Below, piece after piece: positions 2,111 to 25,588 of a stretch of 25,860 nucleotides of DNA (position 1 is the stretch's first letter; every line of letters starts with the position of its first letter). The notes below the pieces were generated by a model. That model saw only the letters and a program-made list of their open reading frames with translations. It had not been told where the DNA came from and searched no databases. The translations under genes were made by a program, and so were the position numbers. The stretch is from a virus. The stretch is taken from positions 1 to 25,860 of the IMG/VR virus record IMGVR_UViG_3300010296_000070; one strand, given 5' to 3'.

Positions 2111-2136
2111 TATTCAGATGGGCATTTTTCTTTAAG

Positions 2137-2144: not shown

Positions 2145-2150
2145 TTATTA

Positions 2151-2170
2151 GATAAAAAGCACTATTTATC
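2151..2170. repeat. Short A+T-rich inverted repeat at a gene end
   Basis: GATAAA (2151-2156) and TTTATC (2165-2170) form a 6-bp inverted repeat with an 8-base loop. It overlaps the stop codon of the small coiled-coil gene and sits just upstream of the late promoter box. The stem is weak and no U-tract follows on the minus strand, so it is not a convincing terminator; it might slow 3' decay of the upstream transcript. Confidence 0.3.
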
Positions 2171-8300: not shown

Positions 8301-9711
8301 CATTTTCATTTAAATCTGTATTGAGAGTTAATTTTGTGTATGTTTGAATATCGTATAACCTCAAATCCCAATTAGTAGAATTATCTAAGTATGCTGAATC
8401 TCTTAAATTGAAAGAATATACTCTTGCTTCCCCAACTTTAGAACCAAATCCAGAAAACTGAGAATGTAAATCAATTGTAGTTCTAATTTTTGCTAAACCA
8501 GTAACATTATTTACTGTAAATAAATTGCCAATTTCGAAAGAAATTCCTACATCAGATAAATTTTGAGTATCTCTTGGTTTTTCTATATCTACTATTTCCG
8601 TAGATACTTTTTCAATATCATATCCCCTTACGTATGCCTTGCCTGGAGAAATTTTTAATGATGCTAAATCATTAGAAGGAATATTGCCTTGATATGTTTG
8701 TTCGTTTTCAAAAAATACACCATCGTTTCCTAAACGATCGTTTAAAGAATTTGATAAGGTAATATCAAAAGGATTTATTGTATAATGTCCAGATTCATCA
8801 TAAGTTCTTTCTGCAAGATAATCTCTAATTTTAGAAAATTCTGATTTTGTTTCAATCTTTTTAATTTTTCCATCTTCTACCTGAAGAAGTTCTATAAAAT
8901 TAGTATCATTATTATCAGTTAAATCTTTTTTACTTAGAGTTAAAGATATTTTTAATCTGTCCGCTCCCGGAGATGCAAAGTTAGAAAATCCTTTTGCATT
9001 ATCAAATAAGGATGAGTCTTCTTTAGCAGATACTATTGATTCAGTTACAGTTAAACCGACTCTATACGAAGGGGTATTTGTATAATAATCTAAAATTATA
9101 TTTTCATCATTTACATTTACAAAATAACCTCTAACAAAATAAACACCTTGCCCAATAAATGCCGCAGATCCTACAGAAGTAGATTCTGAAGAAATGAGAG
9201 ATGCAAATGCTGTTCCCGAATTGATGGTTGTATTTCCGTAAGTTACATTATCTAGAGATGAAAGAGTTTCACCATCTTGAAACTCTGTAAATTCAAAATT
9301 TTGATCAGAATCTAAATATTTGAGGTATAATGTAATATATTCTACATCATCAGATTCGACTGGAAGTACAACTTTTCTTACCTTTGCAGTTATTCCTGTT
9401 ACTTCACCTACTATAGTTTTTCCTAAGAAATTTTCAATATAAAGTGATATATCTACCCCAAATTGAGTTGGATTTAATTTTACAGCAAAGAAATTAGGAT
9501 CATATCCAATATTTCCAGGAATCACCATAGATCCCTCTTTAAACACAAAACTGCCAAAATCCTCTACTTGATTTTGAATAATAGATTGTAGAGTGGTTAA
9601 TTCTCTAGATTGAACTGGGTATCCTGGTTTAAATAATACCTTGTAAAAATTATTCTCACTATTGAAATCATCATAATATGGACCTATGTTTAAATTTGTT
9701 TTCTGTGACAT
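2353..9711 (-). CDS. Giant DUF4815-type baseplate/tail structural protein
   Basis: This 2452-residue protein has no transmembrane segment or signal peptide. Residues ~10-70 carry the hallmark of the DUF4815 phage family: YYDDF...NFYKVLFKPGYPVQ, then SRELTTLQSIIQNQ and a GSMVIPG turn. YFVRGYFVNV (near 190) and GKAYVRGYDIE (near 355) continue this module. Around residues 1600-1790 lies DPLAQTF followed by a lectin-like beta region with FLNPGREYAIVISS, recurrent in large T4-like baseplate proteins. A KVGDEIISY module (about 3355-3570) and a GENY repeat (about 4060-4140) resemble repeats in the gene-7-slot protein. The C-terminal ~110 residues end in a beta domain closing NDLRCIAIR. It starts five bases after the gene 8 stop with little Shine-Dalgarno signal. 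It occupies the region of T4 genes 9-11, so a peripheral wedge or fibre-network role is likely. No enzymatic motif was seen. Confidence 0.8.
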   Translation of the reverse strand: MSQKTNLNIGPYYDDFNSENNFYKVLFKPGYPVQSRELTTLQSIIQNQVEDFGSFVFKEGSMVIPGNIGYDPNFFAVKLNPTQFGVDISLYIENFLGKTIVGEVTGITAKVRKVVLPVESDDVEYITLYLKYLDSDQNFEFTEFQDGETLSSLDNVTYGNTTINSGTAFASLISSESTSVGSAAFIGQGVYFVRGYFVNVNDENIILDYYTNTPSYRVGLTVTESIVSAKEDSSLFDNAKGFSNFASPGADRLKISLTLSKKDLTDNNDTNFIELLQVEDGKIKKIETKSEFSKIRDYLAERTYDESGHYTINPFDITLSNSLNDRLGNDGVFFENEQTYQGNIPSNDLASLKISPGKAYVRGYDIEKVSTEIVDIEKPRDTQNLSDVGISFEIGNLFTVNNVTGLAKIRTTIDLHSQFSGFGSKVGEARVYSFNLRDSAYLDNSTNWDLRLYDIQTYTKLTLNTDLNENEYLESFVVEGATSGASGFLVSDSSVSNIIFLRQTSGTFVKGEGLIVNGIESSRSVEFVQSYGIEDIKSVRQITPFSSSSSDFIADTVLDRVSFNGGISLISVSGSSNGISTVTANGRKFVGIKTDNIIRYQRSNLNLETYNRVVSISNDGLSFEVVGIATVAGVFDGSVPASPGFFVSGSEIVDSQVTGFIGQPTIRGSGKLYALLPEKNTSSLDLSSSNLYLNDQIVGKNVNIDNELQLTTSGDLSNINGITWSTFDEERYTVGYANGNIPRITDDSISISGSNLTIKGLDNTLSFNDTVVNVTVLKDNIQSKVKNYDRSTVTFVTRSKFKESGLNENTSKNDGLSFNNYYGLRVQDKEISLNYPDVAKVICVYESLDKFDPVLDKLQFSSSPDVSNNAIIGENIIGTQSGAVARVVANVTTTPSASTDTLGVVYLNNQRFSVGETVKFKESNINSTLDGIIKGSYKDISDSFKLDRGQKEQYYDYSRIVRSRSASEPSRRIMIVFDHYSVPSNETGDVFTVASYQEERYSNDIPLISGKVRATDTLDFRPRVTKFDPNVTTDKSPFDFVSRTGAFSSNPSRLLAAGESSILSQNFYLPRIDKVYLTTTGEFLVDKGISSKNPEEPKTREDMLELSTINLPAYLYDPQDAEIVSVDNKRYTMRDISLIEDRVDVLEEVTSLSLLEANVQSSQIKDSEGRDRFKTGFFVDDFSNYSKIDSFLSTVLIDDEYKNLLPNISRDSLDSIVVSKDNTTINDLDLNENFVLKDSSIQKTGKSLTLSYIQKDWIEQPFATKSEKVNSFGISSYDGKITLNPSSDEWFRTIEGNINHKKPQKNIEVEKESDLVNTGNDNTSLDKVTESYLRSRNVEFTALNLKPNTRFYHFLDGNSDVDVIPKLIEIATDSSLSIDGSSGSFEVGETVIGFIDGVAKIRFRVCNQNHKSGRFDNPTEKYTVNPYNKTLSLTSTYGTTSKVLNVDTSSLADLRQGLYFGYITKGMKLVGQSSNATSYVKDIRLISDNYGDLIGTFFIKNPYSTPKPAIRIPTGNKTFKLTTSKSNTVNSILRSDTESSNSLGLPTISNIPQSKAETNYVSKQTHIKFERPLSKIKAKSRSIRNAIQEEVIPNVTVIKNSDPLAQTFSVGNNLGSQSEIETNVDVNGATLTSLDLYFASIDSGNEEITVEIRSTEYGIPTRNIIGKPAILKPRTLNEDGTETININVSSTGNVATNIKFPEPIFLNPGREYAIVISSDKSEEYSLWTAVMGQQTIETKNLPDVDTVRYTKKVGIGFLYKNQNGSNWTPNKYQDLKFKLYKAEFTKTSGIAYFYNPQLSEGNTFVPTLRNNPITVLPKTGRISISTTTSSILIDALSAGRKLVGTNSNGGSAIVVGSGSSVTNVEITNSGENYPKSVTETVDTYNILGKGRNLKLNITTNSSGTVISVGQSSTNAGNGYQVGDVVGIVTSSTSSTTGNGSRITISATNGLDTIYLTNVQGEFGIQGSGHEFAVGAGISYYSDSGSVVSTSANIIDSISDGGLNSGNYIKVNHFNHGMYSDTNKVLIKNIQSSEVSTILNSTLSFNNTGTISVANTSVFVNFEGIPVSGTNLGYVKVGDEIISYSAVGSGSLTISPNGRGIDSTKITTHTTGSTVEKYELSGVSLRRINNITHNVSTPIEMDSYYIEFSRGNQYGKDRNLDGSTNKYPQLSFNDSRVLGGSNVTASQNISFGAVVPNYEIITPSSSTSVSAQIRTVTGTSVGGNEAPFNDKGFENVLLNSLNPLNSVRLVCSEVNQNEYLTNLPNKKSFTTAIKFETSDPNLSPILNLDHAFTEFYSYRLNNPVSDYAKDSRVNSIVNDPHSSAYYSNLIKLRNPASTLKVILSAEKPVGTDFRVLYKLIKSDSSEVEQAFNLFPGYKNLTQSKDGLIVIDEANNSGLSDRKIDSSIEGEFLEYEFTAENLDLFIGFIIKIVYSSTNQAKTVRINDLRCIAIR
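3355..3570 (-). repeat. 'IDDEIITY' module in the DUF4815-type protein
   Basis: The encoded stretch reads TISVANTSVFVNF, then KVGDEIISY, then NGRGIDST...THTTGSTVEKY. It has the same order of elements (strand, FP or F turn, K(I/V)(D/G)DEII.Y, RG, H..GS.V) as modules in the gene-7-slot protein at about 22869-23057, 18510-18700 and 13860-14085. Sharing between adjacent genes suggests module copying or common ancestry. Confidence 0.6.
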
Positions 9712-9716: not shown

Positions 9717-11282
9717 TTAGAATTCCAGGATAATTTTAACGTCTTCTTTTTGCCTAGAGTCTCTTTCAATCAGAGATCTATTATCAATGTAAATTACTTT
9801 TCCAGTACTTTTATTTATCTCTGGTTGAGCAAGTCCATTTTGGAAGGTGACTCCTAAATTTATTTGTTTCGATCCAACAGTCGTAGTTATTCCACTAAAA
9901 GATGTATTAATAGATCCACCAAAAGGAGATATTTCATCTGAAGATGATTTAAATGCAAGAACTTCTCCTTTATTTGTAATATTATTGTTGTCAGTTTGAT
10001 CGAATGTATTATCAAAATATAAAGATCTGTCTTGATAGTACTTTAAAACGTTAGTTTCTTTATCATATGAAACCACATAACCTCTAGCTTTTTTTTCGTT
10101 ACCCAAATTTTGCTCCATAACTTCTCCAATCTCAGGAAGATCAATTTCTTCGATAGAGTCTGCATCCAACTTTAGAGAATATAAGGAAGAAAATGAAGAT
10201 TCTGTATAATTTTCGGTTCTAGAATTTAATTTTTTAGGATTTTGAAGTATTCCAACTTGAGCAAATTTTGTATCTACTGGAAAATCTTTTGTAGAATCAT
10301 CAAATCTGGAGTAAATTAATATTTTATCAGAACCTAATTCTGTGTAGATATCATATCCATGTCCATTTGATGGTGGGATAATTGGAATTAATTTTGCTCT
10401 TTCTGCACTAGATCCCGTGCTTCTCAAATCAATTTGAGCCCAAGTGTAACCACTTCCTCCAGAAATAACCTTTACGTCAGTTATTTGACCATTATTATTT
10501 GCAGTGATTTCTACTTCTCCTCCTGATCCATCACCTAAAATTTTGTAAGATCCTGATGTGTAAATTGAATTTCCTGCTTTTTCAATGTATACTTTTTTAA
10601 TTTGATTATTGTTATCGAACGAATTTCCCGTTTCTCTTACATTGACAATTTGAGGATCTGTGGAAGTTTCCCAATCGTTTGGTATTACGATATATTCCGT
10701 AGTATCGAATTTAATAATATCTGAAGGATTTACTGTAAAAAGATATTTCCAGATGTATCCATCACCACTATTACCTGCCGAACTAGGTTCTAAATCTACA
10801 AATTTTGGTTCATCTCTAGATATATTTCCCCTTAGATTAGTTCCGGAAGAACCATTATCAATACAAATATAAACTTTAAAATCACTGTTCATTACATAAT
10901 AATTGGTATCATATAATCTACTTCTACCTGAATTTGGACTTAAATTACTTACACTATAATCATGCCTATACATTTCATATCGAGTATTAGTGCTCCAATC
11001 AATTCTTCTAATTACTCTTCTTACATTATCACTTCCAATTTTTTTGCCAAATAACATGGTATCTTTATAATGAGATAAGTATTGAAAATTATCTACAGGA
11101 CTTGGAATATCTGCTGGAGAAGCATCCCAAGTTGTGGTTCTGCCAAAACCAACTGGAACTCCAGTAGAACCTGGGTTAGATAAACCAAGAAAAACATAAT
11201 AAGAATTATTAACGTCTAATAAAGAACTTACAAAGTTATTTGCATTCACAATCCTAAATTGATCTGTTACTAATGCCGACAT
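9717..11282 (-). CDS. 8: Baseplate wedge protein gp8
   Basis: The 521-residue protein starts MSALVTDQFRIVNANNFVSS. I recognise the cyanophage gp8 pattern: SYYVFLGLSNP near residue 27, a W..SP..IPSPVDN segment near 50-65, RRIDW....RYEMYRHDYS near 91-110, YVMNSDFKVYICIDN near 128-142, and GDGYIWKYLFTV near 173-184. In T4, gp8 is a dimer on the baseplate wedge that contacts gp7, gp10 and gp6. T4 gp8 is 334 residues, so this protein is longer; one added element is a VKVISGGSGY unit near residues 266-275 related to repeats in its giant neighbours. It follows the gene-7-slot gene across a 57-base gap that holds a late promoter, and the DUF4815-type gene begins five bases after its stop. The Shine-Dalgarno is weak (AAAG). 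Order 25-6-[7]-8 matches T4 and supports the call. Confidence 0.85.
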   Translation of the reverse strand: MSALVTDQFRIVNANNFVSSLLDVNNSYYVFLGLSNPGSTGVPVGFGRTTTWDASPADIPSPVDNFQYLSHYKDTMLFGKKIGSDNVRRVIRRIDWSTNTRYEMYRHDYSVSNLSPNSGRSRLYDTNYYVMNSDFKVYICIDNGSSGTNLRGNISRDEPKFVDLEPSSAGNSGDGYIWKYLFTVNPSDIIKFDTTEYIVIPNDWETSTDPQIVNVRETGNSFDNNNQIKKVYIEKAGNSIYTSGSYKILGDGSGGEVEITANNNGQITDVKVISGGSGYTWAQIDLRSTGSSAERAKLIPIIPPSNGHGYDIYTELGSDKILIYSRFDDSTKDFPVDTKFAQVGILQNPKKLNSRTENYTESSFSSLYSLKLDADSIEEIDLPEIGEVMEQNLGNEKKARGYVVSYDKETNVLKYYQDRSLYFDNTFDQTDNNNITNKGEVLAFKSSSDEISPFGGSINTSFSGITTTVGSKQINLGVTFQNGLAQPEINKSTGKVIYIDNRSLIERDSRQKEDVKIILEF

Positions 11283-11339: not shown

Positions 11340-14300
11340 TTAAATAATAGCACCAGTTTGTCTCAATCCTACTCCTCTTCTAATTATTGAAGGGAATGTT
11401 GATAACCCAACATCGATAGTTTTTCCAGTAACACCGATAGATATTGGAGAACTTGCTCTAACAATATTTTCTAATCTACCCCATGAGAATCTTCCAAGAT
11501 ATCCACTGGTTGTTGTAATTCCTACAATGTTTGTTCCCGAATCTACTGTGCAAGTTATTACACCTGTAGGACCAGATGTAACAATCTCATTAATATAGTA
11601 GATATTATCTAAGAAACTGGTGCCAATACCGATGATAGAATTGTCATTACCATCAACTGTGGTAACTCCAGATCCAACATTTGTTTTGTGAATAAGAATT
11701 GCATATCCTGGAGCCAAATCAGTAATGTTCTGATTATTATCTCTTTTAATATTAAATTTTAATGCGAGTTGCCCAGAGGAAGTTGTAGTTCCTATCCCAA
11801 CGATGTCACCATTAAATCCTTTAATGTTTTGAATTATACCAGTATTTTCAGTAATAGGATTTATTGTTTCTACAATTGCATGAGGTGCTATTGTATAACC
11901 AAATCCAGGATTTGTTATAGTTACTGAAGACAAAGTTCCTCCAATCGAAATAGTTCCTGTAGCAGAAGCTGTTGTTCCAATTCCAGTTTTAACCCTTATA
12001 GGATTCATAAATTTAATATCAACCGTAGAAGATGGTATATACCCACTTCCAGGATTTGTAATTGTAATTGCAGAAATAGTTCCACCAGTGCCAATAGTTG
12101 GAGTAATATCCGCAGATTCAAAATTAATGTCTTCTGCTATCAAAGATTTAAATTGATATGGTGCCCCATCATTATCATCAAAACCAAAGAAATCTACATT
12201 GTCTACAAAAATAAAGTTATCATTAATTGAAACATCTTTTATAATTTTAGTAACTGGATAAACCTGAGATAAGATAGATTTTCTTGTTTTAAATACTTGT
12301 TGTCCATTTATAACTCTATCTGTTTTTTGTTTTGTCCATGACATCGGTTTGAAATCGATTTCATTTATACCCTGATCCACATATGGATTTGTCTCAAATA
12401 AATCTGATCTTGAAAGGTCAAAAACAATTCTTTTATTTTGAGTTTCTGTACGAGGAATACTATTATTTTTATACACTTGAACAGTGTCACCAACCTCCAG
12501 AGATGGAATAATATTAGTAACTAAATTATCGTCAACTCCTCTAGTTCCTCTATAAAAGTAAATATCAATATTATCTTCTACCTTAGGAGGTTCTGTGAAG
12601 AGGAAAGATGTTCCACCTTCAAAAGTATAAGCAAATCCAGGATCTTGAATAATTCCATTAACAACAATAAGTAATAAATTTTGAAGATCTGAAGTTGGAA
12701 TTTGATCAGTTCCAGATTCAAAACTAATTAAATCACCCTGATAAAATAATGGAAATCTTCTCCTGTTTCCATCTTGATAATTTTTAACAGAATCAATATA
12801 ATCAAATTCTCCAAATTGGAAAACAGCAAAATTATCACTATAAGTTTCCAATACTGTTAATTCAAATTGTGTTATAGGAGAAGATAATCTAGAATCTGTT
12901 ACTAATCCTACAGGAGTAAATACATCACCTTTTTTAAATGCATATCCATTGTTTAATATTTTGAAATTTTTCACTTCAAAATAAGTTGATCCTATTCCTG
13001 TTGTAGAACTTGCACCAACATCTACTGACACTTTAAAACCAATTCCAGTATCTGTAGTTGTTCCTAAACCGACTCTAGAAACCCCGATAACGGAAAGATT
13101 TTCATAAGATGGTTCTGATACAAATACTTGTGGATTTGTGTATCCAGTTCCACCAGAACCGACGACAAAGGAAAGTGATCCACCTGCACCTACTATAGCA
13201 TTGATAGATGCTACATCCCCAATATGGCCTTCTTCGAATATAGAAACCCCAATGGAAACTATAGAGTCGTTATATCCAGATCCATTAAAATCTGTTGTTC
13301 CTATACCAACAGAAACTATACTTCCTCCAGCACCAACTATTGCAGTAACTGAGGCACCTGCTAATGGTGCATATCCAAGTCCTCCAGAAGATCCTAAGGA
13401 AACAATTATTCCTCCTCTCGGAAGTTGATTTTGATTTACATCAGATTCTGAAATGAATATACTATTAGGATCTCCCAAATCACTTCTAATACCAGTGAAA
13501 CTAATGCTAGTTATTCCACTTACAGAATCTTCCAAAATTTCATAGTTTCCTGTAGGATTATTATCCGTTACTGGTGATTGATAAATTCCATTTAATATTA
13601 CGAAACCATTTCCACCACTTGTGCCAATTCCAATTGTATTTCCACCACCAACGGTCAAAGTGTAAGTTCTATCAATTCCAGTAAAAGTAGATCCAATATT
13701 ATCAAAAATTATATTTGTAGAATAATCTGCTCTCAAATATACTCTTCCAGAAAATTCTGCAGATTCATACTCTAAATTAGATTCATTTCTAGTTAAAATT
13801 GCATTTCCTCTAGGTGGTTCAGTAAAATGTATTTTACCATCTGAAATATTAAATGTTCCCTGGAAAATTGTTACTGGAGAAAGGTCAGAATGGATTGTAG
13901 CTGCAGAACCTACAGATCCTCTCTCAACATTTACTAAATTCACAGTACCTAAACCAGATATTGGTCCAGAAATATTAGTTGCAAATCCAACATTATTAAC
14001 TAACATAAATTCATCATCAACTTTTAGTAAATCTAAAGGATTTATTGTAGATATTCCACTCAAAGATATAAATGAAGATGCCGCAGAAACAGATCCACCA
14101 TTTCCTTCAAGAGTTTTAGTAACTAATGTTGATACTAAAGGATATTGTACTAAATCACTTATTGTGATTAAAACTTTTTCATTTGATTTAAACATCTCAA
14201 ATTGATGGGCATTTCCAGATCCTAAATCTGTGAATGTTACTGCAGTTCCTGCTCTGGTTGTAGAAATTTGGAATGTTCCATCGTCTTCATTTTTATTAAT

Positions 14301-17300
14301 TACAAATACAGATGATGGTAATAAATCTTCTGATGTTCCATTTTTATAAGTTACTTCAGTAGCTGCAATTCCAGAAAAAGTTGATTTCGCAGTGTAAATT
14401 AATTCTTCATTTTCATTAAAATAATTTCCTGGAATTGTAAATTTACCTGTAGAAGCATCAAGTTGATTTGTATTTCCTGGGTTAAATGTTCTTGCAAAAA
14501 TAGGAACTCCATTTCTAGTTAGAGTGAAACTTTTTGTATTGAATCTATCACCATTAATAGAATTATATGCTGCAACTTTATGCTCATCTAAAGCAGAACC
14601 ATATTTCAAAGGTTTTGGTTGATTTATAAAGTCTACTTCAGTATAGAAACATTGACTAAAGGCAACTATACTTATATTTTGATTTTCTTCAGGATAAAAT
14701 ACAAGATCAAAATTGGTAGATCCTAAATATTTTCCTCCAAAAGTTCCGATTCCAGTGAGATAATTATCCTCAGTAATATATGGAGATTGTTGAATAAAAA
14801 TATTATTTTGATCTTGTATTAACAAAACTTGATGTAAAGATTTATCTGATCCTATTCCAACTTCAATATAAGATTTAACGGCATCAAAATTAAACTTATT
14901 AAGTGATAATATAGTTTTTGCACTTCCAGCATTAGTTTCTTCAAAATCTGATCTATAAATGACTGTTTTTTCAGTTGTTGCTGGTTGACTTTCTGCTAAG
15001 TATCTGTATTTTTCTTCACCTCTACCTGTTGTCCCAAATCCAACAATTCTTGATTTTAAAGTAAGATTATTTGAAGAATTGTTTTCAAAATCTAAAGTAA
15101 ATCTTCCAGCATTAATATTTGCTACAAAAGATCCTATTCCCAAGAAACTATCTGAATTAAAGTTTTCAGCAGTGTCTACAAAATATTCTGCAATATTGGT
15201 ATTTTCTCCATCATGAGTAACATAAAGTTCCACAAGATTTGAAATATTATTTGTTCCATCAATTATATTTGCCGTTACAAAAATTGATGATAAAGAACTA
15301 GTATCAAATCCTACTACATTTATTGTTTCTCCTACAGAAACAGTGTTATTAAAGGAAATTAGATCAACAAATCCAATAGATTCTGTTGATATGCCTATAT
15401 CATTAGTAAATGATTTTTTAATAAATTTAATATCATAATCAACGTTGAAAGGATCTGTAGGGGTGAATCTAATAAAAGTATCTCCAAATAAATCAGTTTC
15501 AATTGAAAAATCTCCATATTGATCATCTATACTATGCAGAGTTCCTAATTCTAAATTTGTAATTGATTCTTTTTCAATGACTGTAAAATTATTATTCGCA
15601 GGATCACTAAGTATAGTCATATCAGTAAACTGAATCTGATTTTTTGATTCTTCGGAAGTTACTTTGATTAAAAAGTTTTGATATATTGAAGAATCACTTA
15701 CTTTTTCATCATCAATAGAAACAAATAAATCCGGATCAAATTCAGAGTCTGAAAAATCTTCAGAAATATCATCAATTTTTAATACGTTATTTGAAATTGC
15801 CTCAGTAAAATCACTAAGTTTTCTTGTTTTTAACTTTATAAATCTAGATCTTTCATTAAAGACATCTACATCTTGAACTAAATCAAAATCATTAATAGTA
15901 TCAACTCTATTTTCATTTAAAATATCTACAACTATGGTAGTATTATTTGATGTTGTTGTAATTCCCGCATTAGAATCTCCAATTAACTCTGTATGTGCAA
16001 AGTTTTTAGTTCCTGCGGTATGCACAATGTCATTAATAGCAGTTTTTTGATCATTCCAAGTTACTTGACTTTTAATAGCATAAGAAAGATTTTGATAATA
16101 ATCATTATCAGGGAGAACTTGATAATCTTCATTCAAAAATCCTGATCTATTATACCAACCTTCATCAACTCTATTAGTTGCAGAAACTGTATAGTTTCCA
16201 TTAAAAAATTCAATATCCTTAACAATTGCTACGTTACCACTTACTTTTCCTGTTATTTTATCATTGGATTTAATTGGATCATTTCCAAATATTTTTATAA
16301 TGTTACTACTTTCATATTCAAATACTTCTAAATTTGATTCCTCACCATTCAATAAAATATTTTCACCAATTTCAAAATTAGATGGACTAACTTCAACTAA
16401 AAATGTGGGATAATTCTTCTTATTTACAATAGTTCCTGAAGAATCTTGAATAGTTTTTGCAACTCCAGGATTAGATGATAAAGATTTTATTGTTACCACA
16501 TCTGCCCCAGAAGGATCTGCAGCTAAACCGTAATTTGTAACAGTAAAGAATTTGTAACCATAATCTTCAGAGTTAAATCCATCTCCAGACGATCCTTGTT
16601 TCTGAATACCCTCAATAAACACTTCATCATTTATTGCAAAAGGTTTTTCTCCAAATCCACCAAAAGGCGTTGTAATTGTGCAACTAAAAGTTTCTGTGTT
16701 AACATCATAATTTACTTTTTGAATACTGACACCATTTGTGTTATTTACTGCAAAAACTTCTGCCCCAAAGTCTGACACTCCTTTTGCTGGAACTTCAACA
16801 TCAATTTTAGATATTGAAGATCCAGAAATAACTGCTCTCAATAGACCATTAGAAACTTCTTTTCTATCATCTTTATTAATCAAAACTAAATCTGGTGCAT
16901 TAATAAAATTGGACCCTCCATTAGTAACACTAACAAATCCTACAGTATTAGATGCTATCAAAGAAACTATGGGAGAAATTAATGCAACAGGTTTTAAAGT
17001 TTTATCTGAAGAATATTCAAACTTAGTATCAATTATTTTAGATTTTAATACATTACCGATACTAGAAGATTGTGTTAAGATTGAGAGACCATTACCTTCT
17101 TTTGAATCTGTTCCTTTGAAAATAGGAAGTTTATTGTAATTTGATCCTTTTGATAATATTTTAATCAAATTAGCCGGACCTTTTGCATTTTTAGATGTAG
17201 TAGTATAATCCAATTTGTCACATTCGGAACTGGTATAACTTAATCTTTCGGGAGTATTTCTGAGATTTATATCAAAAGAAGTTGATTCTGTAGATCCAAT

Positions 17301-20300
17301 CCCAAATACACTATAACTTTGATTATACAAACTATCAAGATACAAAATTTCTGAATTGTTTTCTATAGTAGTGTCAGCAGTGCTAATATATCCAGACTTT
17401 TCAAGTGAGTAATAAATCTTTTGAGGTAAATTTGAATTGTAATTAATAGTGAATTCTGCACCTGAACTTCCTGGAGTTCCAGATTTCACAGTTACAAATG
17501 AATCTGTAGATCCTATAGAAACAAAATCATTTAAAAATTCTTTATCGTAAAAAACTTTAAAATTGTATCCAGATAAGGTATTATCTGATAAATCAAATAC
17601 TAAGTTATTATTCTTTACAACTTTAATTTGTGGATTAATTAGTGATATTGTTTGATTTGAATTTCCTGTAGAAGTAATATCAATTTCTTTTAATGTATTA
17701 TTACGAGAATCAATTAGTGTTTCGCATAATTTAATTGTATTATTATCTTTTACATACACAAAATACGTAGTATTATTAACAGGAACATTTGGTGAAATAT
17801 ATGAAGTATTTTCATATATTACTTTATCTCCAGTTTTAAATTTATGATTAAAAATTGTAATTTCATTTAAAGAGGTATTGATATCAGATGTGTTTATCTT
17901 AACGGGATCAATAATTATATTTTCAATATTATCATTATATAAAACTTTTACTTTAGTTGAAGTTCCAATACCAACGGAGAGTGATGGATTTACAGTTAAA
18001 TTGATAATATCTCCATCTTTTAAACCATGATATGTTGATACTGATACAGTAGCTTTGTTTTTTGCAACTTTTGCCTTTTTCTCATCAAAAACAGTTTCAA
18101 TTAAATATTCGTCAGAATTTTCACCATTAGTTGAAAAATAAACCTCTGTTGAATCTAAAGATGTTTTAAGACCAATAGTATCTTTGGATTTATTTACTAT
18201 ATAAAGATTAGGAGGTAGATTAAAGTTTGTTCCAGTAGGTGTGCTTCTTACTTGAATATTATCATTAATTCCTCTTTCAAATTTTACTTTTTGGTTATTT
18301 TTGAATGGGTGATTTTCTAAGAAAATTGATTGTGTCGGAACACTTAAGTTTATTGCTTCTTCGCCAATATTAAACACAATATTAGTAAATTTACCTGGTA
18401 TTGTACCAAGACCTACAGATTCTTTAGGGTTAAAATAAACTTTAATATTTTTATTTGAGTCAAAATATGGAATAGATTTTTCAATATCAAAAACATAATT
18501 TTTAAATGTGACAGCAGTTCCTACTGTATGAACTGTGCCTACATTTCCTCTTTTTACTCTAAGTATATTTTTTTCAGAGTATACATTAAGTATAGAAAGA
18601 GTTTCATTTCCAATGTTTATGCTAGATCCAGAAGATACACTATTTGGAATATTTGTAACGTAAATATCAGTAGAAACTCCACTCGCAGTTATTTCTGTTG
18701 TAATAGCAACATTTGGAATTTCTTTAACTGAAATCCGAGAAATTCCATTCAATTGAGATAATACAGAAGTTGTAAATCCAGAAACACTTACATAATCCCC
18801 ACTCTTAAAAGTATTTGGTAACGGTGTGTGAACCCTAATTTTATTAGAGTTCCATACAAAAACCACATTGTCAAAAATTTCTGAAGATGTTGTTACATTA
18901 GAAATTTCTTTTCCTTTAATTGAAGATATTTTAGATTGAATTCCACCACCAAAAGTTTGATTTTCAAATTTTAATTTATCATCTACTTTGTAATTTTCAC
19001 CCGAATTTACAATATTGATTTTATCAATACTGCCTTTAGAAATAGAAGTTATTCTTACTTCTTGATTAGAGATTTCTCTAGATTCTGTTACAAAATCATA
19101 TCCAGAAAATTCCTCAGTAATTTTGTGTGGAAAAGTGTTTCTAATTAAATTATATTTTTCAAATTCAAATGTTTGATCTAAGAATTTATTTTCAGTTATT
19201 AGAATTGATCTAAATGAATTTCCAACAAAATATGGGAATTCTGGATTTCCTGTAATTGAATTTATGGTAGCATGATAAGCATAAACTCCATTTGGAAATT
19301 CTTGAGTTTTTTCAAACCTCCCATTATGTTCATCCAAATCACCGGAATTATCAAAATAATAATCTTCAACGAAAAATCCATCAACAAACTCAGAAGGTCT
19401 ATCAATAACTTTTGAAGTGTCTATACTATATCCAGAAACTAATGTCTTTGTTGTTGAATTTATATCTGTAGGATCTAGTAATCCATAAGGACCGTATATT
19501 GGATTTCCGTCATAAGCCCATCCAATAATGCCAGAATTTGAAGAAGAAATATCTCCAAAAGAATCTCTTAAACTATTTGAGTATCCATTGAACATAAAAG
19601 AAAGACCTTGGTCTTTATTTTTTAATTCATGATATAATCCAGGTCTCTTTTGTAAAGAATTTACAGTTAAAGATCTAATCTTTCCTTCATATACAGCATT
19701 AAGTCCTCTAGGTCTTATTATAATTTTACTATTAGATGAATAATTTGCTCCTTTGTTAATTATCGTGACTGAAGAAATTCTAGAATCAGAGATATTCGCT
19801 TTCAATTTAGCACCAGATCCCTTTCCGGTAGGATCAAATAATTCCAAATCAGGTTCAGAAAAATATTCAATACCCCCAAATTCAATATTAACAGATAGTA
19901 AAAATCCCGCAACAATGTTAGGTACAATGCTTGCTTCTCTTCCATTTTGTAAAGATATTTTTGGATATTTTTCAAAATTTAATGTTTTTGACCCATATCC
20001 AAGACCTTTATTATAAACATAAATTTTTTCTATAGATCCTTTGATAACTGGTGAAACTTGTATAGATTTTGTTACTGAAACTGCAGATCCTACAGGTGAT
20101 AAATTTACAGTTATTTTGACATCTGGATACTTAAACTTTTGATATCCAGATCCTGTCGATGATAATTTAACAATATTTCTTCTTTCAAAATTAGATGATA
20201 TTGTATTTCCTACACCAGCATCGCATAATTGAAAAGAATCTTTATTATTTGTTACAACATAATATCTATTTGATGTAGAAAGACCAGATATTGTAGAACC

Positions 20301-23273
20301 TCCAGAATCAATAAAGTATTCAACAATTTCTCCCGTGGAAAATCCATGATCTTTAAAGTTAATTGTATTTTTTGCAGTGGATATTCCCGAAGTTTTTACA
20401 TATAATTGTCTGTTTGTAAATGATCCTCCATCAATAACTCTAACCTCGGTAAGAGTATTTTTAAATTCTGCGGTTTTAAATTTTTGATTTCCAGTAAAAG
20501 AAGTTCCACCAAATCCTATTGGATTTGTATCATTTATCGCATCTTCAAATGTTTCATGTAATTGAATTGTTGTGCTGTTGTCTACAGACACAAAGTAAGA
20601 ACTATTATTTGTAAGAGTAGATGATCCTAAACCAATACTAATATTATTATTTCCATTATTGAAATAAATTACTTCTTGACCATTAAAGAAATTATGATTT
20701 TCTAAAAATGTTATCTGATTGGTAGATAGATCAATACCACCACCCTGTGTAGTTTTTCTTGCATCAAATAAAACATCTCTTCTTCTTTTTACTAATATTG
20801 GTTGTAATACTCCTCCTTTAGAATTTCCACCTTCAATATCAACACTTGTAATTTGTTCAATATCAAATTCTTGAGGAATTACACTAATATCTGTTATTGT
20901 TCCTGTGATAACTGGTATTGCTAAAGCTTCTTCTGATCCACCATTTATTTTTATTTTTGGTAAATTAATAACATCATAATTTTTTCCACCATTCAATACT
21001 CTAATTTCTTCAAGAGGACCATAATATATTTTATCTTCTGATTTATAATTTGAGATTTCTACACCATTTATAAGCATCCCTACAGGGAAACCTGGAATGG
21101 TATTTGTAGATTTGCCGTTTTCTATATTTGATGGGATTGGGAATTTTCTAAGAATCTTTGATCCAGATAATTTTTTATTACTTTGGGAAGATAATGTGAA
21201 TATATGAGAACCTGAGATTTCTTCTGTATTGGATTCTGGATAATTATCTGAGTAAAACTTGACAGCAAATTTATCATCGTCTATTGTGCTTATAGATTCA
21301 AATAATTTTATAGAATTGTTGTTAATTACTTTTACATAGTATTCATCATTATTTAAATTGAATAACCTTTTATCTGAAAATTCATAAAATACTTTATCAC
21401 CAGTTATAAATTGGACTTCATCTTCAAAAGATATTGTAGAAAATGCATCCGTGTCTAAATCTCTATCTGCTATAAATCCCGAGTTAAAAGAAATAAAATT
21501 TTCAATCAGTTTAGGGTTTAAGTTATACAAAAAATCTGTTGATATTCCAGTGGATCTACTTGAAGGTAAAGAATTAGATGCAACATATGCAAATTTTTCA
21601 TCTTCAATATATAAATTTTGAATGTCAGTTATTTCAGAATCATTTCCATTTAAAAAATTGATAGTATTACTATATCCCTTATTGACTTTTCTTCTTAACT
21701 TATAAAGTCCATTTTCAGAAAAAGTGCTTCCTGACAAAAATATTTGGTTTGACCCCACAGAAATGTTTTGACTAACAAAAGGAATGTCAGAAGTTGAAGT
21801 TGGATATACAACTATATTTGTACCTCTATCTACAATTTCTACTAAATCATTTTTCTTTAATTGTGATTTATCAACAGAATTTTTTAGAATTACATTAGAT
21901 CCTGATATAGATTCAATGTCAATTGAAGGACTTGTATTATAAATCCAAGAGTTTGCGAAAATTTGTTTATAACTTTTATTGTTCTCTGGATTTGTAATAT
22001 TATCACCAATACTTTGTACTGATACTTTTTGATTCTCAGATATAGTAATATTATCAGAACCTTGATTAAATTTAGAAATGACTCCAGTCAATCTAAAATC
22101 GATTCTTTTTGAAGGATCTCCATTTTCAAAGGCAAAATAAGTATTATCAGAATAAATGTTATCTGTGGAGTAAATTTTAGTTTCTACACCAGAACATCCA
22201 AAAAACTGATTAATACTTTTATTAGTGTAGGTTATTTTATTAGATCCCGAATAAATAGTTCCAGATTCAGGAAACCCAATAGTAGAATCTACACTAATTA
22301 TAGAATCACCTACATTTACATCTTCTAATGATTTTGTATTTTGAGTTATATCAAAAGTTTCTTCTGCTGCAATTCCATCATTTGATCCAACAAAGAGAGA
22401 TGCCCTATAATATAATTTTTGACCTCTAGTAAAAGGACTTATTGTAGAAATTGCGGCAGAAATAAAAGAATTTTTATTTTTAAATAGTGATTGGCCTTTT
22501 ACATTTAATGGATTTCCATCAGAAATAAGTTCTAAAATTGCAACGTCAGATCTAACATAATTTGCATTAGAAGATTTTAACAAGTATTCTTCTAAATTAA
22601 TAATAGATGGAGTTTGCCCAAAAAGCACATTAAATAAAATTCTAAAAGATTCGTCAGTTCCTTTTGATGAATAAAGAGATTTTATTTCTTTAATGAAATT
22701 ACCTACATCAATTCTATCATCAAACTTTCTACCTTCAAATCCAGGAGCAAAGGTGAACTTAAACTTTTTAAAAAATTCTTTTAAAAATAGAGAACTTAAA
22801 TTCGTTATTTTAGAATCTTTAATATGTGATAATTTTTTAGATTGTTCAAATACTAATTCTTCTACTTTCAAATCGTTGTGGTAATCTGTTATTCCACTAA
22901 AACCACGTATACATCCAGTAAATCTATTGGTCGTAATTCCAGTATACGTAATAATTTCATCATCAATTTTGAGGAGTCCATACTTCGTTGGGAATCCTTT
23001 AGTGCTTGATACAATAATAGTATCATCATCTTCTCCAATAGAAGCTTCTAAAGTTGTATTATCAACAATAACTTCTGGTTTTAAATTGTCTAATTTTAAA
23101 TATTGATCTAAATTTTCCGCAATATCTACAGTTCCACCTTGGTATTCTTGAGATATGTAATACTGTTTTAGAAAATCAACTGTTTTTGGACTTTCATCCA
23201 AAATAAATTCTGGAAGTTGATTTGAAATTATATTTTGAATCTTTACTCTAGATTCAAATCCAGTATGTATCAT
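11340..23273 (-). CDS. Giant modular baseplate wedge protein in the gene 7 slot
   Basis: The 3977 codons are uninterrupted; T4 gp7 is 1032 residues. The N-terminus is conserved in marine T4-like phages: LPEFILDESPKTVDFLKQYY (residues ~20-39), AENLDQYLKLDNL, and FIKEIKSLYSSKGTDESFR (~193-211), probably the wedge-anchoring part. A mosaic follows: IDDEIITY-type modules, at least five H.F..G..V.Y units, G..Y strand repeats, a YHYH-type domain near 1215-1353, a YYQNLSYAIKSQVTW module near 2390, and NGVPIFARTFNPGN near 2920. A Gly-Ile-Gly-Thr-rich region and a conserved tail (GRFSWGRL...STFPSIIRRGVGLR) end it. No signal peptide, membrane span or peptidase motif was seen. It starts one base after gene 6's stop with a weak AGAGAG Shine-Dalgarno. 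In T4, gp7 bridges the (gp6)2 dimer and outer wedge proteins; assigning that role is synteny-based, as I see no clear similarity to T4 gp7. Confidence 0.75.
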   Translation of the reverse strand: MIHTGFESRVKIQNIISNQLPEFILDESPKTVDFLKQYYISQEYQGGTVDIAENLDQYLKLDNLKPEVIVDNTTLEASIGEDDDTIIVSSTKGFPTKYGLLKIDDEIITYTGITTNRFTGCIRGFSGITDYHNDLKVEELVFEQSKKLSHIKDSKITNLSSLFLKEFFKKFKFTFAPGFEGRKFDDRIDVGNFIKEIKSLYSSKGTDESFRILFNVLFGQTPSIINLEEYLLKSSNANYVRSDVAILELISDGNPLNVKGQSLFKNKNSFISAAISTISPFTRGQKLYYRASLFVGSNDGIAAEETFDITQNTKSLEDVNVGDSIISVDSTIGFPESGTIYSGSNKITYTNKSINQFFGCSGVETKIYSTDNIYSDNTYFAFENGDPSKRIDFRLTGVISKFNQGSDNITISENQKVSVQSIGDNITNPENNKSYKQIFANSWIYNTSPSIDIESISGSNVILKNSVDKSQLKKNDLVEIVDRGTNIVVYPTSTSDIPFVSQNISVGSNQIFLSGSTFSENGLYKLRRKVNKGYSNTINFLNGNDSEITDIQNLYIEDEKFAYVASNSLPSSRSTGISTDFLYNLNPKLIENFISFNSGFIADRDLDTDAFSTISFEDEVQFITGDKVFYEFSDKRLFNLNNDEYYVKVINNNSIKLFESISTIDDDKFAVKFYSDNYPESNTEEISGSHIFTLSSQSNKKLSGSKILRKFPIPSNIENGKSTNTIPGFPVGMLINGVEISNYKSEDKIYYGPLEEIRVLNGGKNYDVINLPKIKINGGSEEALAIPVITGTITDISVIPQEFDIEQITSVDIEGGNSKGGVLQPILVKRRRDVLFDARKTTQGGGIDLSTNQITFLENHNFFNGQEVIYFNNGNNNISIGLGSSTLTNNSSYFVSVDNSTTIQLHETFEDAINDTNPIGFGGTSFTGNQKFKTAEFKNTLTEVRVIDGGSFTNRQLYVKTSGISTAKNTINFKDHGFSTGEIVEYFIDSGGSTISGLSTSNRYYVVTNNKDSFQLCDAGVGNTISSNFERRNIVKLSSTGSGYQKFKYPDVKITVNLSPVGSAVSVTKSIQVSPVIKGSIEKIYVYNKGLGYGSKTLNFEKYPKISLQNGREASIVPNIVAGFLLSVNIEFGGIEYFSEPDLELFDPTGKGSGAKLKANISDSRISSVTIINKGANYSSNSKIIIRPRGLNAVYEGKIRSLTVNSLQKRPGLYHELKNKDQGLSFMFNGYSNSLRDSFGDISSSNSGIIGWAYDGNPIYGPYGLLDPTDINSTTKTLVSGYSIDTSKVIDRPSEFVDGFFVEDYYFDNSGDLDEHNGRFEKTQEFPNGVYAYHATINSITGNPEFPYFVGNSFRSILITENKFLDQTFEFEKYNLIRNTFPHKITEEFSGYDFVTESREISNQEVRITSISKGSIDKINIVNSGENYKVDDKLKFENQTFGGGIQSKISSIKGKEISNVTTSSEIFDNVVFVWNSNKIRVHTPLPNTFKSGDYVSVSGFTTSVLSQLNGISRISVKEIPNVAITTEITASGVSTDIYVTNIPNSVSSGSSINIGNETLSILNVYSEKNILRVKRGNVGTVHTVGTAVTFKNYVFDIEKSIPYFDSNKNIKVYFNPKESVGLGTIPGKFTNIVFNIGEEAINLSVPTQSIFLENHPFKNNQKVKFERGINDNIQVRSTPTGTNFNLPPNLYIVNKSKDTIGLKTSLDSTEVYFSTNGENSDEYLIETVFDEKKAKVAKNKATVSVSTYHGLKDGDIINLTVNPSLSVGIGTSTKVKVLYNDNIENIIIDPVKINTSDINTSLNEITIFNHKFKTGDKVIYENTSYISPNVPVNNTTYFVYVKDNNTIKLCETLIDSRNNTLKEIDITSTGNSNQTISLINPQIKVVKNNNLVFDLSDNTLSGYNFKVFYDKEFLNDFVSIGSTDSFVTVKSGTPGSSGAEFTINYNSNLPQKIYYSLEKSGYISTADTTIENNSEILYLDSLYNQSYSVFGIGSTESTSFDINLRNTPERLSYTSSECDKLDYTTTSKNAKGPANLIKILSKGSNYNKLPIFKGTDSKEGNGLSILTQSSSIGNVLKSKIIDTKFEYSSDKTLKPVALISPIVSLIASNTVGFVSVTNGGSNFINAPDLVLINKDDRKEVSNGLLRAVISGSSISKIDVEVPAKGVSDFGAEVFAVNNTNGVSIQKVNYDVNTETFSCTITTPFGGFGEKPFAINDEVFIEGIQKQGSSGDGFNSEDYGYKFFTVTNYGLAADPSGADVVTIKSLSSNPGVAKTIQDSSGTIVNKKNYPTFLVEVSPSNFEIGENILLNGEESNLEVFEYESSNIIKIFGNDPIKSNDKITGKVSGNVAIVKDIEFFNGNYTVSATNRVDEGWYNRSGFLNEDYQVLPDNDYYQNLSYAIKSQVTWNDQKTAINDIVHTAGTKNFAHTELIGDSNAGITTTSNNTTIVVDILNENRVDTINDFDLVQDVDVFNERSRFIKLKTRKLSDFTEAISNNVLKIDDISEDFSDSEFDPDLFVSIDDEKVSDSSIYQNFLIKVTSEESKNQIQFTDMTILSDPANNNFTVIEKESITNLELGTLHSIDDQYGDFSIETDLFGDTFIRFTPTDPFNVDYDIKFIKKSFTNDIGISTESIGFVDLISFNNTVSVGETINVVGFDTSSLSSIFVTANIIDGTNNISNLVELYVTHDGENTNIAEYFVDTAENFNSDSFLGIGSFVANINAGRFTLDFENNSSNNLTLKSRIVGFGTTGRGEEKYRYLAESQPATTEKTVIYRSDFEETNAGSAKTILSLNKFNFDAVKSYIEVGIGSDKSLHQVLLIQDQNNIFIQQSPYITEDNYLTGIGTFGGKYLGSTNFDLVFYPEENQNISIVAFSQCFYTEVDFINQPKPLKYGSALDEHKVAAYNSINGDRFNTKSFTLTRNGVPIFARTFNPGNTNQLDASTGKFTIPGNYFNENEELIYTAKSTFSGIAATEVTYKNGTSEDLLPSSVFVINKNEDDGTFQISTTRAGTAVTFTDLGSGNAHQFEMFKSNEKVLITISDLVQYPLVSTLVTKTLEGNGGSVSAASSFISLSGISTINPLDLLKVDDEFMLVNNVGFATNISGPISGLGTVNLVNVERGSVGSAATIHSDLSPVTIFQGTFNISDGKIHFTEPPRGNAILTRNESNLEYESAEFSGRVYLRADYSTNIIFDNIGSTFTGIDRTYTLTVGGGNTIGIGTSGGNGFVILNGIYQSPVTDNNPTGNYEILEDSVSGITSISFTGIRSDLGDPNSIFISESDVNQNQLPRGGIIVSLGSSGGLGYAPLAGASVTAIVGAGGSIVSVGIGTTDFNGSGYNDSIVSIGVSIFEEGHIGDVASINAIVGAGGSLSFVVGSGGTGYTNPQVFVSEPSYENLSVIGVSRVGLGTTTDTGIGFKVSVDVGASSTTGIGSTYFEVKNFKILNNGYAFKKGDVFTPVGLVTDSRLSSPITQFELTVLETYSDNFAVFQFGEFDYIDSVKNYQDGNRRRFPLFYQGDLISFESGTDQIPTSDLQNLLLIVVNGIIQDPGFAYTFEGGTSFLFTEPPKVEDNIDIYFYRGTRGVDDNLVTNIIPSLEVGDTVQVYKNNSIPRTETQNKRIVFDLSRSDLFETNPYVDQGINEIDFKPMSWTKQKTDRVINGQQVFKTRKSILSQVYPVTKIIKDVSINDNFIFVDNVDFFGFDDNDGAPYQFKSLIAEDINFESADITPTIGTGGTISAITITNPGSGYIPSSTVDIKFMNPIRVKTGIGTTASATGTISIGGTLSSVTITNPGFGYTIAPHAIVETINPITENTGIIQNIKGFNGDIVGIGTTTSSGQLALKFNIKRDNNQNITDLAPGYAILIHKTNVGSGVTTVDGNDNSIIGIGTSFLDNIYYINEIVTSGPTGVITCTVDSGTNIVGITTTSGYLGRFSWGRLENIVRASSPISIGVTGKTIDVGLSTFPSIIRRGVGLRQTGAII
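11600..13650 (-). repeat. Gly-Ile-Gly-Thr-rich repetitive C-terminal region
   Basis: The encoded protein repeats short strands ending in (V/I)G(I/L)GTT or close variants: IGIGTSGG, VGIGTTDF, VGLGTTTDTGIG, TGIGSTYF, TGIGTTAS, VGIGTTTS and IGIGTSF. They alternate with SGY turns (GSGYND, GTGYTN, GSGYIP, GFGYTI). Two tandem units, ISAITITNPGSGY and LSSVTITNPGFGY (about 11850-12090), are close copies. The regular Gly-rich strands suggest a stacked beta structure, which is inference. Confidence 0.55.
17699..21440 (-). repeat. Five dispersed copies of an 'H.F..G..V.Y' module
   Basis: Five related units of about 55-66 residues occur at about 21262-21440, 20524-20722, 20197-20367, 18134-18331 and 17699-17864. 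Each has an opening strand, then (D/E/N)H.F..G(D/E/Q).V.Y or a variant, a loop of 10-20 residues, a Y(Y/F)V strand, and a closing D..(S/T)I.L motif. The clearest are LENHNFFNGQEVIYF, KDHGFSTGEIVEYF and FNHKFKTGDKVIY. A sixth, diverged unit may lie at about 14200-14440 (NYFNENEELIY...GTFQIST). The copies are separated by other modules, so this is a dispersed, not tandem, repeat family. Confidence 0.6.
19215..19640 (-). other. YHYH-type domain inside the giant wedge protein
   Basis: The encoded residues (about 1215-1353) contain GWAYDGNPIYGPYG, then YYFDNSGDLDEHNGRFEKT, EFPNGVYAYHATI and NPEFPYFVGNSF in that order. This matches the pattern I know for YHYH domain proteins, which occur in secreted bacterial proteins and as inserts in marine phage structural proteins. 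The biochemical role of the domain is unknown to me. The flanks are beta repeats, so it looks like a discrete insert. Confidence 0.7.
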
Positions 23274-23274: not shown

Positions 23275-25185
23275 TTACTCTCTGATTAATTTTCCGTTTG
23301 AATAACTTGATGTATAGAAATTTTTTCTAAAAATTGTTCCTGATATTTCTTCACCTGAAGAAATAACATCTTTCAACATATTTATTTCACTATTAGAAAT
23401 GTCTAATTTCAAGAAAATATCACGTAACCCCACGACATCATTAGATTCTGGTATGGCTTGAACTTCTATAACATTATTTGATTTTTCTGTGGAAGTAATA
23501 TTTATAGTTCCAATATTAATTTCACCCTTAATATAATCTACTGTTCCTGCAGATTTAGAAATAACTCTAATTGTCCCATTCGATAAATTTTTCACAACAG
23601 AAATTAATCCAGTTTTTCTATCTGGATTTGGAACATCAGTAAAATAAACAGTACCACTTTCACCGGCAACTGTAAATCCTGTTGATTTAATATTAAATCC
23701 ACCATCATTTACATGAAATTGATTACCAAAACAAAGTTCATATTGAGTAAATTGATTTAGAAGAGCATTTAAATTTCTTCTTATCTTTACTCTAGTAATG
23801 TTTGATGTAATAGCAGTATCAGTATCATCGATTGCTCTTAAAACTTTACTGTACTTAAATCTTCCCCCAAATTTATTTAAATCTAAAGAATTTGCATAAC
23901 TGTTGAGAGTATTTGATATTTTAGTTTTAAGTGTCTGTGGAGTGGATATTTTTGAGTCATCATAATAAACAAAAGAATCTAATTCCACATACAAAACCTT
24001 TAAGTCAATAATATTTTGTTTAATTCCAGAAACAGAATAATTCTTAAGTTCTGAAAGTATTAGTGACTTATTAAACTCACTAATTAACTGACCATTTTTT
24101 GGTTTGATTGATATTTGAACTGTACCAAATTCTGGTGGATCCAATTCTTCTCCACCAACAATAGAAACAGATTCTGTATCTGGATAGATTTCTTTAATAA
24201 TAGCTTCATAATCTTGCCCAGTTACTGCTCTATTTTGTGCAGAGTATATCTTTGGAGCAAAATACTTAATTGAATCTATCTTTTCAATTCCAGAACCATT
24301 CTGTGCTTTAGACACTGTATTTACAGTAAATGGTTGTGGTAAAACTGGATTTTGATTACTATCAACTATTCTACCTGCAAATGAGAAAAATGATGCACCA
24401 TTTCCTTCTTCACCATCAGTTACCAAATAGTTAACTGTGATAACATCTGCATTTTGTAATTTTTTTCCAATCAACCCATCACCAAATAATAATTCATATT
24501 TTTCATCTTGTATCTCTTGAATTAAAAATATAGTGGATTCACCAGTTACATTAATAATATTATCAACCAATCTATATTCCACTCCATCAACATAAACTTT
24601 TATTGATGCAGTGTCAATAAAAGAATTATCTAAAATAAATCTCTGATCTAATGACCCATCATAGGTAAACTGTTTTGTTAAAAATGTTCCCTGAAAAACT
24701 TCTATATTATCAAAATCTGCTCTTACTGCATTAACAATATTACCGTTTTCACCAACAAAACTTGCATCTTCAGTTTGAACTGTAATGTCTTCTACAATTG
24801 AAAATAAATATGATGAATTTTCAATGATACCATTACATACCAAACCTTTTTGTAAAGATAATTTTGATGTATCTGTTCCCTCTACTGTAACTGAAAAAGA
24901 TACTACGGATTTTGCAGAATTTCTAGATCTTGGAACATATCCAATATTTCTTGCTAAAGAAACGACATTCTCCCTAAGAGTTGCAGAGTCTAAAAAAGAC
25001 TCATTTACAATCATGTTAGAGTTAAATGCCGTTATATAAGTATTATATGCTAAAGTATCAATCAAAACTGAAAAGTTGGAACCTTCAAAATCAAATCCCG
25101 TGAAATTCGAATTAGCACGAAGATAATCTTTGATAGAATCTTTTATTTGATCAAAGTCTAGATTTGTGAATTTTGTAAAAGGCAT
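23275..25185 (-). CDS. 6: Baseplate wedge protein gp6 (baseplate J-like)
   Basis: The 636-residue protein is close to T4 gp6 (660). It starts MPFTKFTNLDFDQIKDSIKD, followed by the helical LIDTLAYNTYITAFNSN and SATLRENVVSLARNIGYVP (residues ~47-105), the signature of gp6/baseplate-J-like proteins. The middle, YFAPKIYSAQNRAVTGQDYE and a PDTESVSIVGGEE segment (about residues 308-345), is the conserved J-like core. In T4, two gp6 copies per wedge form the ring that holds the baseplate together, contacting gp7, gp25 and gp53, and rearrange on contraction. The start lies one base after the gene 25 stop and the stop lies one base before the giant gene, so the three are probably co-translated from the promoter at 25611-25618. 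The C-terminal 120 residues are beta-rich and less familiar. Confidence 0.9.
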   Translation of the reverse strand: MPFTKFTNLDFDQIKDSIKDYLRANSNFTGFDFEGSNFSVLIDTLAYNTYITAFNSNMIVNESFLDSATLRENVVSLARNIGYVPRSRNSAKSVVSFSVTVEGTDTSKLSLQKGLVCNGIIENSSYLFSIVEDITVQTEDASFVGENGNIVNAVRADFDNIEVFQGTFLTKQFTYDGSLDQRFILDNSFIDTASIKVYVDGVEYRLVDNIINVTGESTIFLIQEIQDEKYELLFGDGLIGKKLQNADVITVNYLVTDGEEGNGASFFSFAGRIVDSNQNPVLPQPFTVNTVSKAQNGSGIEKIDSIKYFAPKIYSAQNRAVTGQDYEAIIKEIYPDTESVSIVGGEELDPPEFGTVQISIKPKNGQLISEFNKSLILSELKNYSVSGIKQNIIDLKVLYVELDSFVYYDDSKISTPQTLKTKISNTLNSYANSLDLNKFGGRFKYSKVLRAIDDTDTAITSNITRVKIRRNLNALLNQFTQYELCFGNQFHVNDGGFNIKSTGFTVAGESGTVYFTDVPNPDRKTGLISVVKNLSNGTIRVISKSAGTVDYIKGEINIGTINITSTEKSNNVIEVQAIPESNDVVGLRDIFLKLDISNSEINMLKDVISSGEEISGTIFRKNFYTSSYSNGKLIRE

Positions 25186-25186: not shown

Positions 25187-25588
25187 TTATCTTGTTGCCT
25201 CTAATAGAAATGAATACTCTTGTGTAGGAAACTCTTGTCCAATAATGTCATAGATTATAGTAGCACTAAATGTATTTTGATCGGGCCTAGGTTCTACAAT
25301 TACTTGTAAATTATTTACCCTTGGTTCAAAGTTATTAATTGAAGTTTCAATTTCATCTGCAATTAGTGATGCAGAACCAAAATCAATAAAATTAAACAAG
25401 TAACTTCTGACACTAGATCCAAAGATTGAATTAAAAAACTTTTCTGTAGGGATTGTTTGTACAATATTTCTTACAGATCTGCGAATTGCATCTTCGTTTT
25501 TTAACACTTGAACATCTTTACTTACAGGATGAGGGTCGAAGGATAAACTTATATCTTTAAACCCTCTTGATATCCTCTCCATTACCAT
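25187..25588 (-). CDS. 25: Baseplate wedge protein gp25 (GPW/gp25 family)
   Basis: The 133-residue protein is almost exactly the length of T4 gp25 (132). It has the family pattern: KDISLSFDPHPVSKDVQVL near residues 11-29, then NEDAIRRSVRNIVQTIPTEK (31-50), a G(S)..R..LF.F segment, and a C-terminal strand pair after a PR....L.VIVEP motif. In T4, gp25 forms part of the inner wedge core with gp6 and gp53 near the sheath initiation site. It is the first gene after a late promoter box. The start used is the first ATG (MVMERIS); a second in-frame ATG two codons later is possible, and neither has a strong Shine-Dalgarno. Gene 6 follows after one base. Confidence 0.9.
   Translation of the reverse strand: MVMERISRGFKDISLSFDPHPVSKDVQVLKNEDAIRRSVRNIVQTIPTEKFFNSIFGSSVRSYLFNFIDFGSASLIADEIETSINNFEPRVNNLQVIVEPRPDQNTFSATIIYDIIGQEFPTQEYSFLLEATR

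Follow-up and report, generated by a model that had tools for sequence, protein, structure and literature searches.

A split gp7 core in a giant baseplate wedge protein of a cyanobacterial T4-like phage

The T4-like phages of cyanobacteria belong to the most abundant viruses in the sea, and the locus described here bears on the working of their baseplates, in which gp10, gp11 and gp12 are not recognisable. Within the window analysed, a 25.86 kb fragment of a virus genome, positions 11340-23273 of the minus strand form an uninterrupted reading frame of 3,977 codons with an ATG start. At a GC content of 29.8%, the chance of a stop-free run of this length is about 10^-144, so the frame is not random. 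Which protein occupies this position, and what is the bulk of such a long chain for? Read along the minus strand, the gene order is gp25 (25187-25588; PF04965, E=9.5e-13), gp6 (23275-25185; PF21379, E=8.1e-17; phmmer against T4 gp6, 3.6e-38), the giant gene, gp8 (9717-11282; PF09215, E=7.6e-12), a DUF4815 protein and gp13/Ad2, with gp25, gp6 and gp8 being wedge proteins and gp6 the presumed core partner of the giant. A preliminary description of this DNA had placed one frame of about 12 kb between genes 6 and 8 and had given T4 gp7 about 1030 residues; the coordinates proved exact, both flanking genes were identified by Pfam, and T4 gp7 has 1,032 aa.

The giant is a member of an already known family of giant gp7 proteins and not a new kind of protein. 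It gives a near full-length match to PHROG 2885, 'baseplate wedge subunit' (E=0, 3,324 bits), in which residues 3-3338 align with positions 3-3345 of the 4,179 in the profile. With its first 1,000 residues as query, 462 cyanophage records match, the nearest relatives over this stretch being S-SKS1 (48.9% identity) and S-SRM01 (46.4%). The same slot between gp6 and gp8 is found in P-SSM2, S-SRM01, S-CAM7, S-CAM9, P-HM1, S-WAM2 and others, and its proteins range from 1,942 aa (MC09) to 7,124 aa (P-SSM7); those of P-SSM2 (5,195 aa; YP_214343) and P-HM1 (4,446 aa) already carry a gp7 annotation. Apparent lengths of 3,732 aa were traced to flank truncation and have no biological meaning. End-to-end alignments with S-SRM01, P-SSM2, S-T4, S-CAM7 and ACG-2014f are collinear, mostly at 25-60% identity, and reach the C-terminus with P-SSM2 and S-T4. 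Slot, length class and collinearity are thus all shared with the cyanophage gp7s of PHROG 2885 (P-SSM2 YP_214343, S-SRM01 QPX48159, S-SKS1), from which the giant of the window differs mainly in the length of a repeat hotspot and in small blocks. What is new here, as far as the literature searched shows, is a map of the split gp7 core and of the sites of length variation. This map separates about 250 wedge residues from the arm in a chain of about 4,000 residues, and yields testable predictions on the exit points of the arms from the core and on the reasons for their differing lengths between genera.

To relate the giant to T4 gp7, we used a profile of the N-terminal region built from cyanophage sequences only, since a version that included T4 was judged circular. 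Searched against 177,635 PDB sequences, this profile found two T4-type gp7s as its best matches (E 2.3e-4 and 5.1e-4; the next was at 0.51), which supports the earlier reading of the protein in the gene 7 slot as an expanded wedge protein. An HMM matched T4 gp7 directly (E=2.7e-8; shuffled controls 0.15 or worse), and hhalign placed residues 190-311 on T4-family positions 724-824 (P=2.9e-7; reversed controls 0.03 at best). The giant is therefore well supported by its sequence as the gp7 of this cyanobacterial T4-like phage, as is its role in the wedge. It falls within the broad class of gp7 wedge linkers, having a helical piece with an F-Y-x-x-K-G motif followed by domain V (with shuffled, reversed and PDB-wide controls) and a gene between gp6 and gp8 that is single-copy, as judged in the records of relatives. 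XM1 gp17 and TssG of the type VI secretion system, minimal counterparts of gp7, have a gp7 role beside the gp6/TssF dimer that the giant would share (PMC10457771; PMC5813253). None of the curated Pfam gp7 domains fires on the giant, whose sole Pfam match is to YHYH, and phmmer with the whole protein found no match in the PDB. Residues 1-640 and domain VI (PF21456) of T4 gp7 were not found in it, and for this reason we do not file it as a T4-type gp7 (PHROG 964).

Like the silence of the curated Pfam gp7 domains, the low confidence of structure prediction counts against this identification. An AlphaFold 2 model of residues 1-1150, based on an alignment of 61 sequences (mean pLDDT 72.8), has helices at 12-59 and 159-218, these being of low confidence (about 50-60 in the helical core), and beta structure thereafter. 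Foldseek found no match to this N-terminal model below E 1e-3 in the PDB. The first rank, neurexin, did not pass this threshold and was rejected; ranks 2 and 3 were gp7-length chains of the T4-like baseplates 9f4a and 5iv5 (E ~0.02), both of which are entries that contain gp7. Many matches to ubiquitin-E1 were dismissed (E 0.04 or worse, TM ~0.06). Among predicted viral structures, the model matched the 'baseplate wedge initiator' of cyanophage Bellamy (E 6e-82), which adds no independent support because the Bellamy protein belongs to the same family. The model of a C-terminal tile was too poor for use (mean pLDDT 51.6), and its PDB matches are chance.

As read from the alignments, the conserved gp7 core is kept in order, as helix A, helix B with F-Y-x-x-K-G, domain V and an element that we call VHP, and is split or extended by three insertions of 85, 2,083 and 1,547 residues that make up the bulk of the chain. 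The first core piece, helix A (residues 11-64; 23082-23243, minus strand), was delimited by an iterated profile that finds all cyanophage giants together with the gp7s of the rhizobial phages OLIVR6 (270-317), phiM9 (266-316) and ORM_20 (270-318) at E ~1e-19, with the best decoy at 8.6; helices are predicted in this region at 12-19, 22-27, 29-43 and 51-59. Its putative counterpart in T4 gp7 (~644-673) is placed by collinearity only and by way of the rhizobial proteins. The second piece, comprising helix B and domain V (residues 150-293; 22395-22826, minus strand), is the one recovered by the HMM, hhalign and PDB searches, and corresponds to T4 gp7 ~719-824.

The third piece, VHP (residues 2377-2430; 15984-16145, minus strand), lies far downstream. 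A T4-like stretch near residue ~2400 was first seen by hhalign and was weak alone; the rhizobial-phage gp7s (881-919 aa), which have the same helical core and a VHP element at their C-terminus, provided a bridge. Every one of the 16 cyanophage giants gives a single match to an iterated VHP profile, which also finds the element in the 3 rhizobial gp7s and matches all five T4-type gp7s against which it was run (5/5; E 3e-6 to 2e-5, with no decoy better than 0.018). In T4 gp7 itself the match is at 864-889 (E=1.5e-5), within a counterpart region of ~847-894, and hhalign gives P=1.4e-5 (reversed, 0.44). The giant thus shares with T4 gp7 (PDB 5hx2, 5iv5; PHROG 964) both the gene slot and the order of helix B, domain V and VHP, but the T4 protein has VHP almost next to domain V, and in the giant the two lie 2,083 residues apart. 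Since the core of the giant aligns with the last third of T4 gp7, the N-terminal ~640 residues of the T4 protein have no counterpart. The rhizobial gp7s (OLIVR6, 881 aa; phiM9, 903 aa; ORM_20, 919 aa) share helix A, helix B with domain V, and the C-terminal VHP, and differ in having an insertion of ~390 residues between domain V and VHP, ~270 residues ahead of the core and at most 59 after VHP. The conserved wedge anchor that the preliminary description had assigned to the N-terminal ~220 residues is accordingly present at the N-terminus, but the core extends as far as residue ~300 and is taken up again at 2377-2430.

We then compared the lengths of the three insertions in a table of segments that covers 16 giants from cyanophages as well as 3 short gp7s. 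Insertion S1 (residues 65-149; 22827-23081, minus strand) holds one type C beta module (residues 91-129, E=1.1e-18). It has 85 residues here, 79-92 aa in most giants, about 590 in S-SM1 (589) and P-SSM7, and 2 in OLIVR6. In P-SSM7 (record L093, 18189-39563) the slot protein of 7,124 aa carries an insertion of 585 residues between helices A and B. Residues 73-124 (22902-23057, minus strand) are 50% identical over 52 aa to 'tail tube B' of Pelagibacter phages Skadi-1 and Skadi-4 (E 4e-3), so this module is common to other tail proteins. Insertion S2, the first giant arm (residues 294-2376; 16146-22394, minus strand), contains beta modules and a YHYH domain (residues 1228-1338; 19260-19592, minus strand; PF14240, E=2.7e-25) that is also found in the S-PM2 and MC09 orthologues. 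Its 2,083 residues compare with 2,087-2,171 in seven related giants, ~1,500-1,750 in S-PM2, S-WAM2, MC09 and S-CAM1, ~2,650 in S-SM1 and P-SSM7, and 388-399 in the rhizobial phages.

Insertion S3, the C-terminal arm (residues 2431-3977; 11343-15983, minus strand), is the most variable segment, with 48 aa in MC09, 1,547 here and 3,627 in P-SSM7. An optional block after VHP (residues ~2508-2882; 14628-15752, minus strand), recognised by its absence in relatives, is mostly missing from S-CAM9, and residues 2517-2915 have no match in a metagenomic relative (L189). Slice comparison located a hotspot of length variation at residues 3326-3363 (13185-13298, minus strand), where a slice of 60 residues here is matched by 1,120 aa in P-SSM2, 651 in S-T4 and ~260 in S-CAM7 and ACG-2014f. 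Internal repeat scores of this slice are 177 and 175 in P-SSM2 and S-T4, against 46 and 37 after shuffling; tandem-repeat expansion clusters near residue 3,340, and most of the added length of these two proteins lies there. That S2 is more constant than S3 is what would be expected if the core holds both ends of S2. The small beta modules claimed earlier for the middle of the protein were recovered as 18 hits of three recurring types, G-G-x-G-Y (7), H-G-F-x-T-G-D (7) and G-F-P (4). The accompanying picture of conserved ends around a patchwork middle is only half right: the modules recur, but their order is conserved across cyanophage genera, and the middle is collinear and no less ordered than the ends. 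The comparison of length and module order across phages that had been proposed thus gave a conserved order with variable lengths, the variation lying mostly in S3.

Taken together, we consider it very probable that the giant is a gp7 wedge linker whose core is split by insertions, with arms that presumably form the baseplate periphery. A gp7 linker of this kind would pack against the gp6 dimer, with presumably one chain per wedge and six per virion, its core forming a bundle with gp6. S2 would exit the core and come back, giving a doubly anchored arm of near-constant length within a lineage, while S3 would exit after VHP with its end free, so that its length could drift through gain of repeats and loss of modules. 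The arms would be at the periphery, holding or acting as host-contact parts in place of the gp10/gp11/gp12 pins of T4.

Several lines of evidence bear on the periphery. T4 gp7 is a monomer, present in six copies per tail, by which the gp10 pins are linked with gp6 and gp8 (PMC3004832). XM1 gp17, a minimal gp7 orthologue of 242 aa without the giant insertions, holds the tail spikes by a short loop of its helical domain (80-106) and a C-terminal tail (201-242) (PMC10457771); by position, not by alignment, these may be likened to S1 and to the C-terminal side of the giant. Cyanomyoviruses have been reported to lack g10, g11 and g12 (PMC2984593), and in our searches no record other than T4 had GP11, and among these non-T4 records only S-SM1 and P-SSM7 had the N-terminal domain of gp9/gp10. 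Given the XM1 gp17 precedent and the absence of both from close relatives, a peripheral position of the arms is the best reading. It is possible, though doubtful, that in each wedge a closed, doubly anchored S2 of ~2,080 residues and a free S3 adjustable by repeats do the job of gp9-gp12, including host contact and the triggering of contraction. In S-PM2, the 3,048-aa protein of this slot is S-PM2d081 (L180, 7531-16677), which was mutated in host-phage chemostats in a study that calls it hypothetical (PMC9910659). The DUF4815 ('VrlC-like') protein (2,452 aa; 2353-9711, minus strand; PF16075, E=4.8e-53; PHROG 358, of unknown function) is the other candidate for the periphery and a possible partner of the giant, whose arms it may join there. 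Its gene follows gp8 in the window and in most relatives, and the G-F-P module of the giant also occurs in the DUF4815 protein of relatives.

That close relatives have neither GP11 nor the N-terminal domain of gp9/gp10 in a separate gene would also fit a fusion of gp7 with T4-type gp9, gp10, gp11 and gp12 in a single chain. We regard this as improbable, as the giant showed no credible similarity to T4 gp9, gp10, gp11, gp12 or gp7 1-640 (9 targets; the best, gp10, at E 0.0054 and 2 bits), the largest added segment lies inside the gp7 core and not at an end, and a gp9/gp10-type gene is retained next to the giant in S-SM1 and P-SSM7. In these two phages the neighbouring gene is gp9-like and encodes a gp9/gp10-type N-terminal domain (in S-SM1, L091, 36722-37945), which the closer relatives of the window lack.

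Another reading takes the chain for a polyprotein that is cleaved post-translationally, giving one part for the wedge and others for fibres. Orthologues of the giant are present in two published virion proteomes, which speaks for the reading as a gp7 wedge protein. Purified virions of S-SM1 contained T4-GC969 (PMC3037559), which is SSM1_102, the protein of 6,180 aa that follows gp6 in that phage, and S-CREM2 virions yielded 91 unique peptides of ORF122 (1,937 aa), which is flanked by ORFs listed as wedge proteins (PMC10665884). Taken alone, these peptide counts are compatible with cleavage. No sign of cleavage was found, however, and because VHP (2377-2430) must join the N-terminal core, a simple release of the middle would be awkward; we therefore judge a polyprotein to be quite unlikely.

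It is very unlikely that an unrelated giant fibre or adhesin took over the slot while the true gp7 lies elsewhere. Such a replacement would agree with the assignment of gp7 by Sullivan et al. (2010) to the non-cyanophage core only (PMC3037559), and the S-SCSM2R version is annotated 'large exoprotein ... adhesion'. The gp7 core, however, was found in the giant with controls, and each of the 14 records searched (12 large cyanophage records, T4 and OLIVR6) holds exactly one such core (14/14), located in the slot; the remaining matches in these genomes were only to the beta module of S1. As the window is a fragment, genome-wide statements on gp7 copy number rest on these relatives, and the second gp7 that the preliminary description proposed to look for elsewhere in the genome did not appear in any of the 12 cyanophage records.

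Finally, an assembly artefact or a chimera of several genes, to which the broken frames of the giant gene in L189 and in the S-SKS1 record might point, is refuted, since the frame is intact in many independent cultured phages and in the metagenomic relatives L190 and L191, and several of the cultured phages match it collinearly from end to end. In L189 (2202-12946) the frames of gp6 and gp8 look broken as well, which indicates a sequence or assembly error, and we rejected natural splitting as the cause of the short frame there. In the S-SKS1 reference record (12101-22292) the giant gene is spread over several broken frames, partly unannotated, probably as a result of sequence errors.
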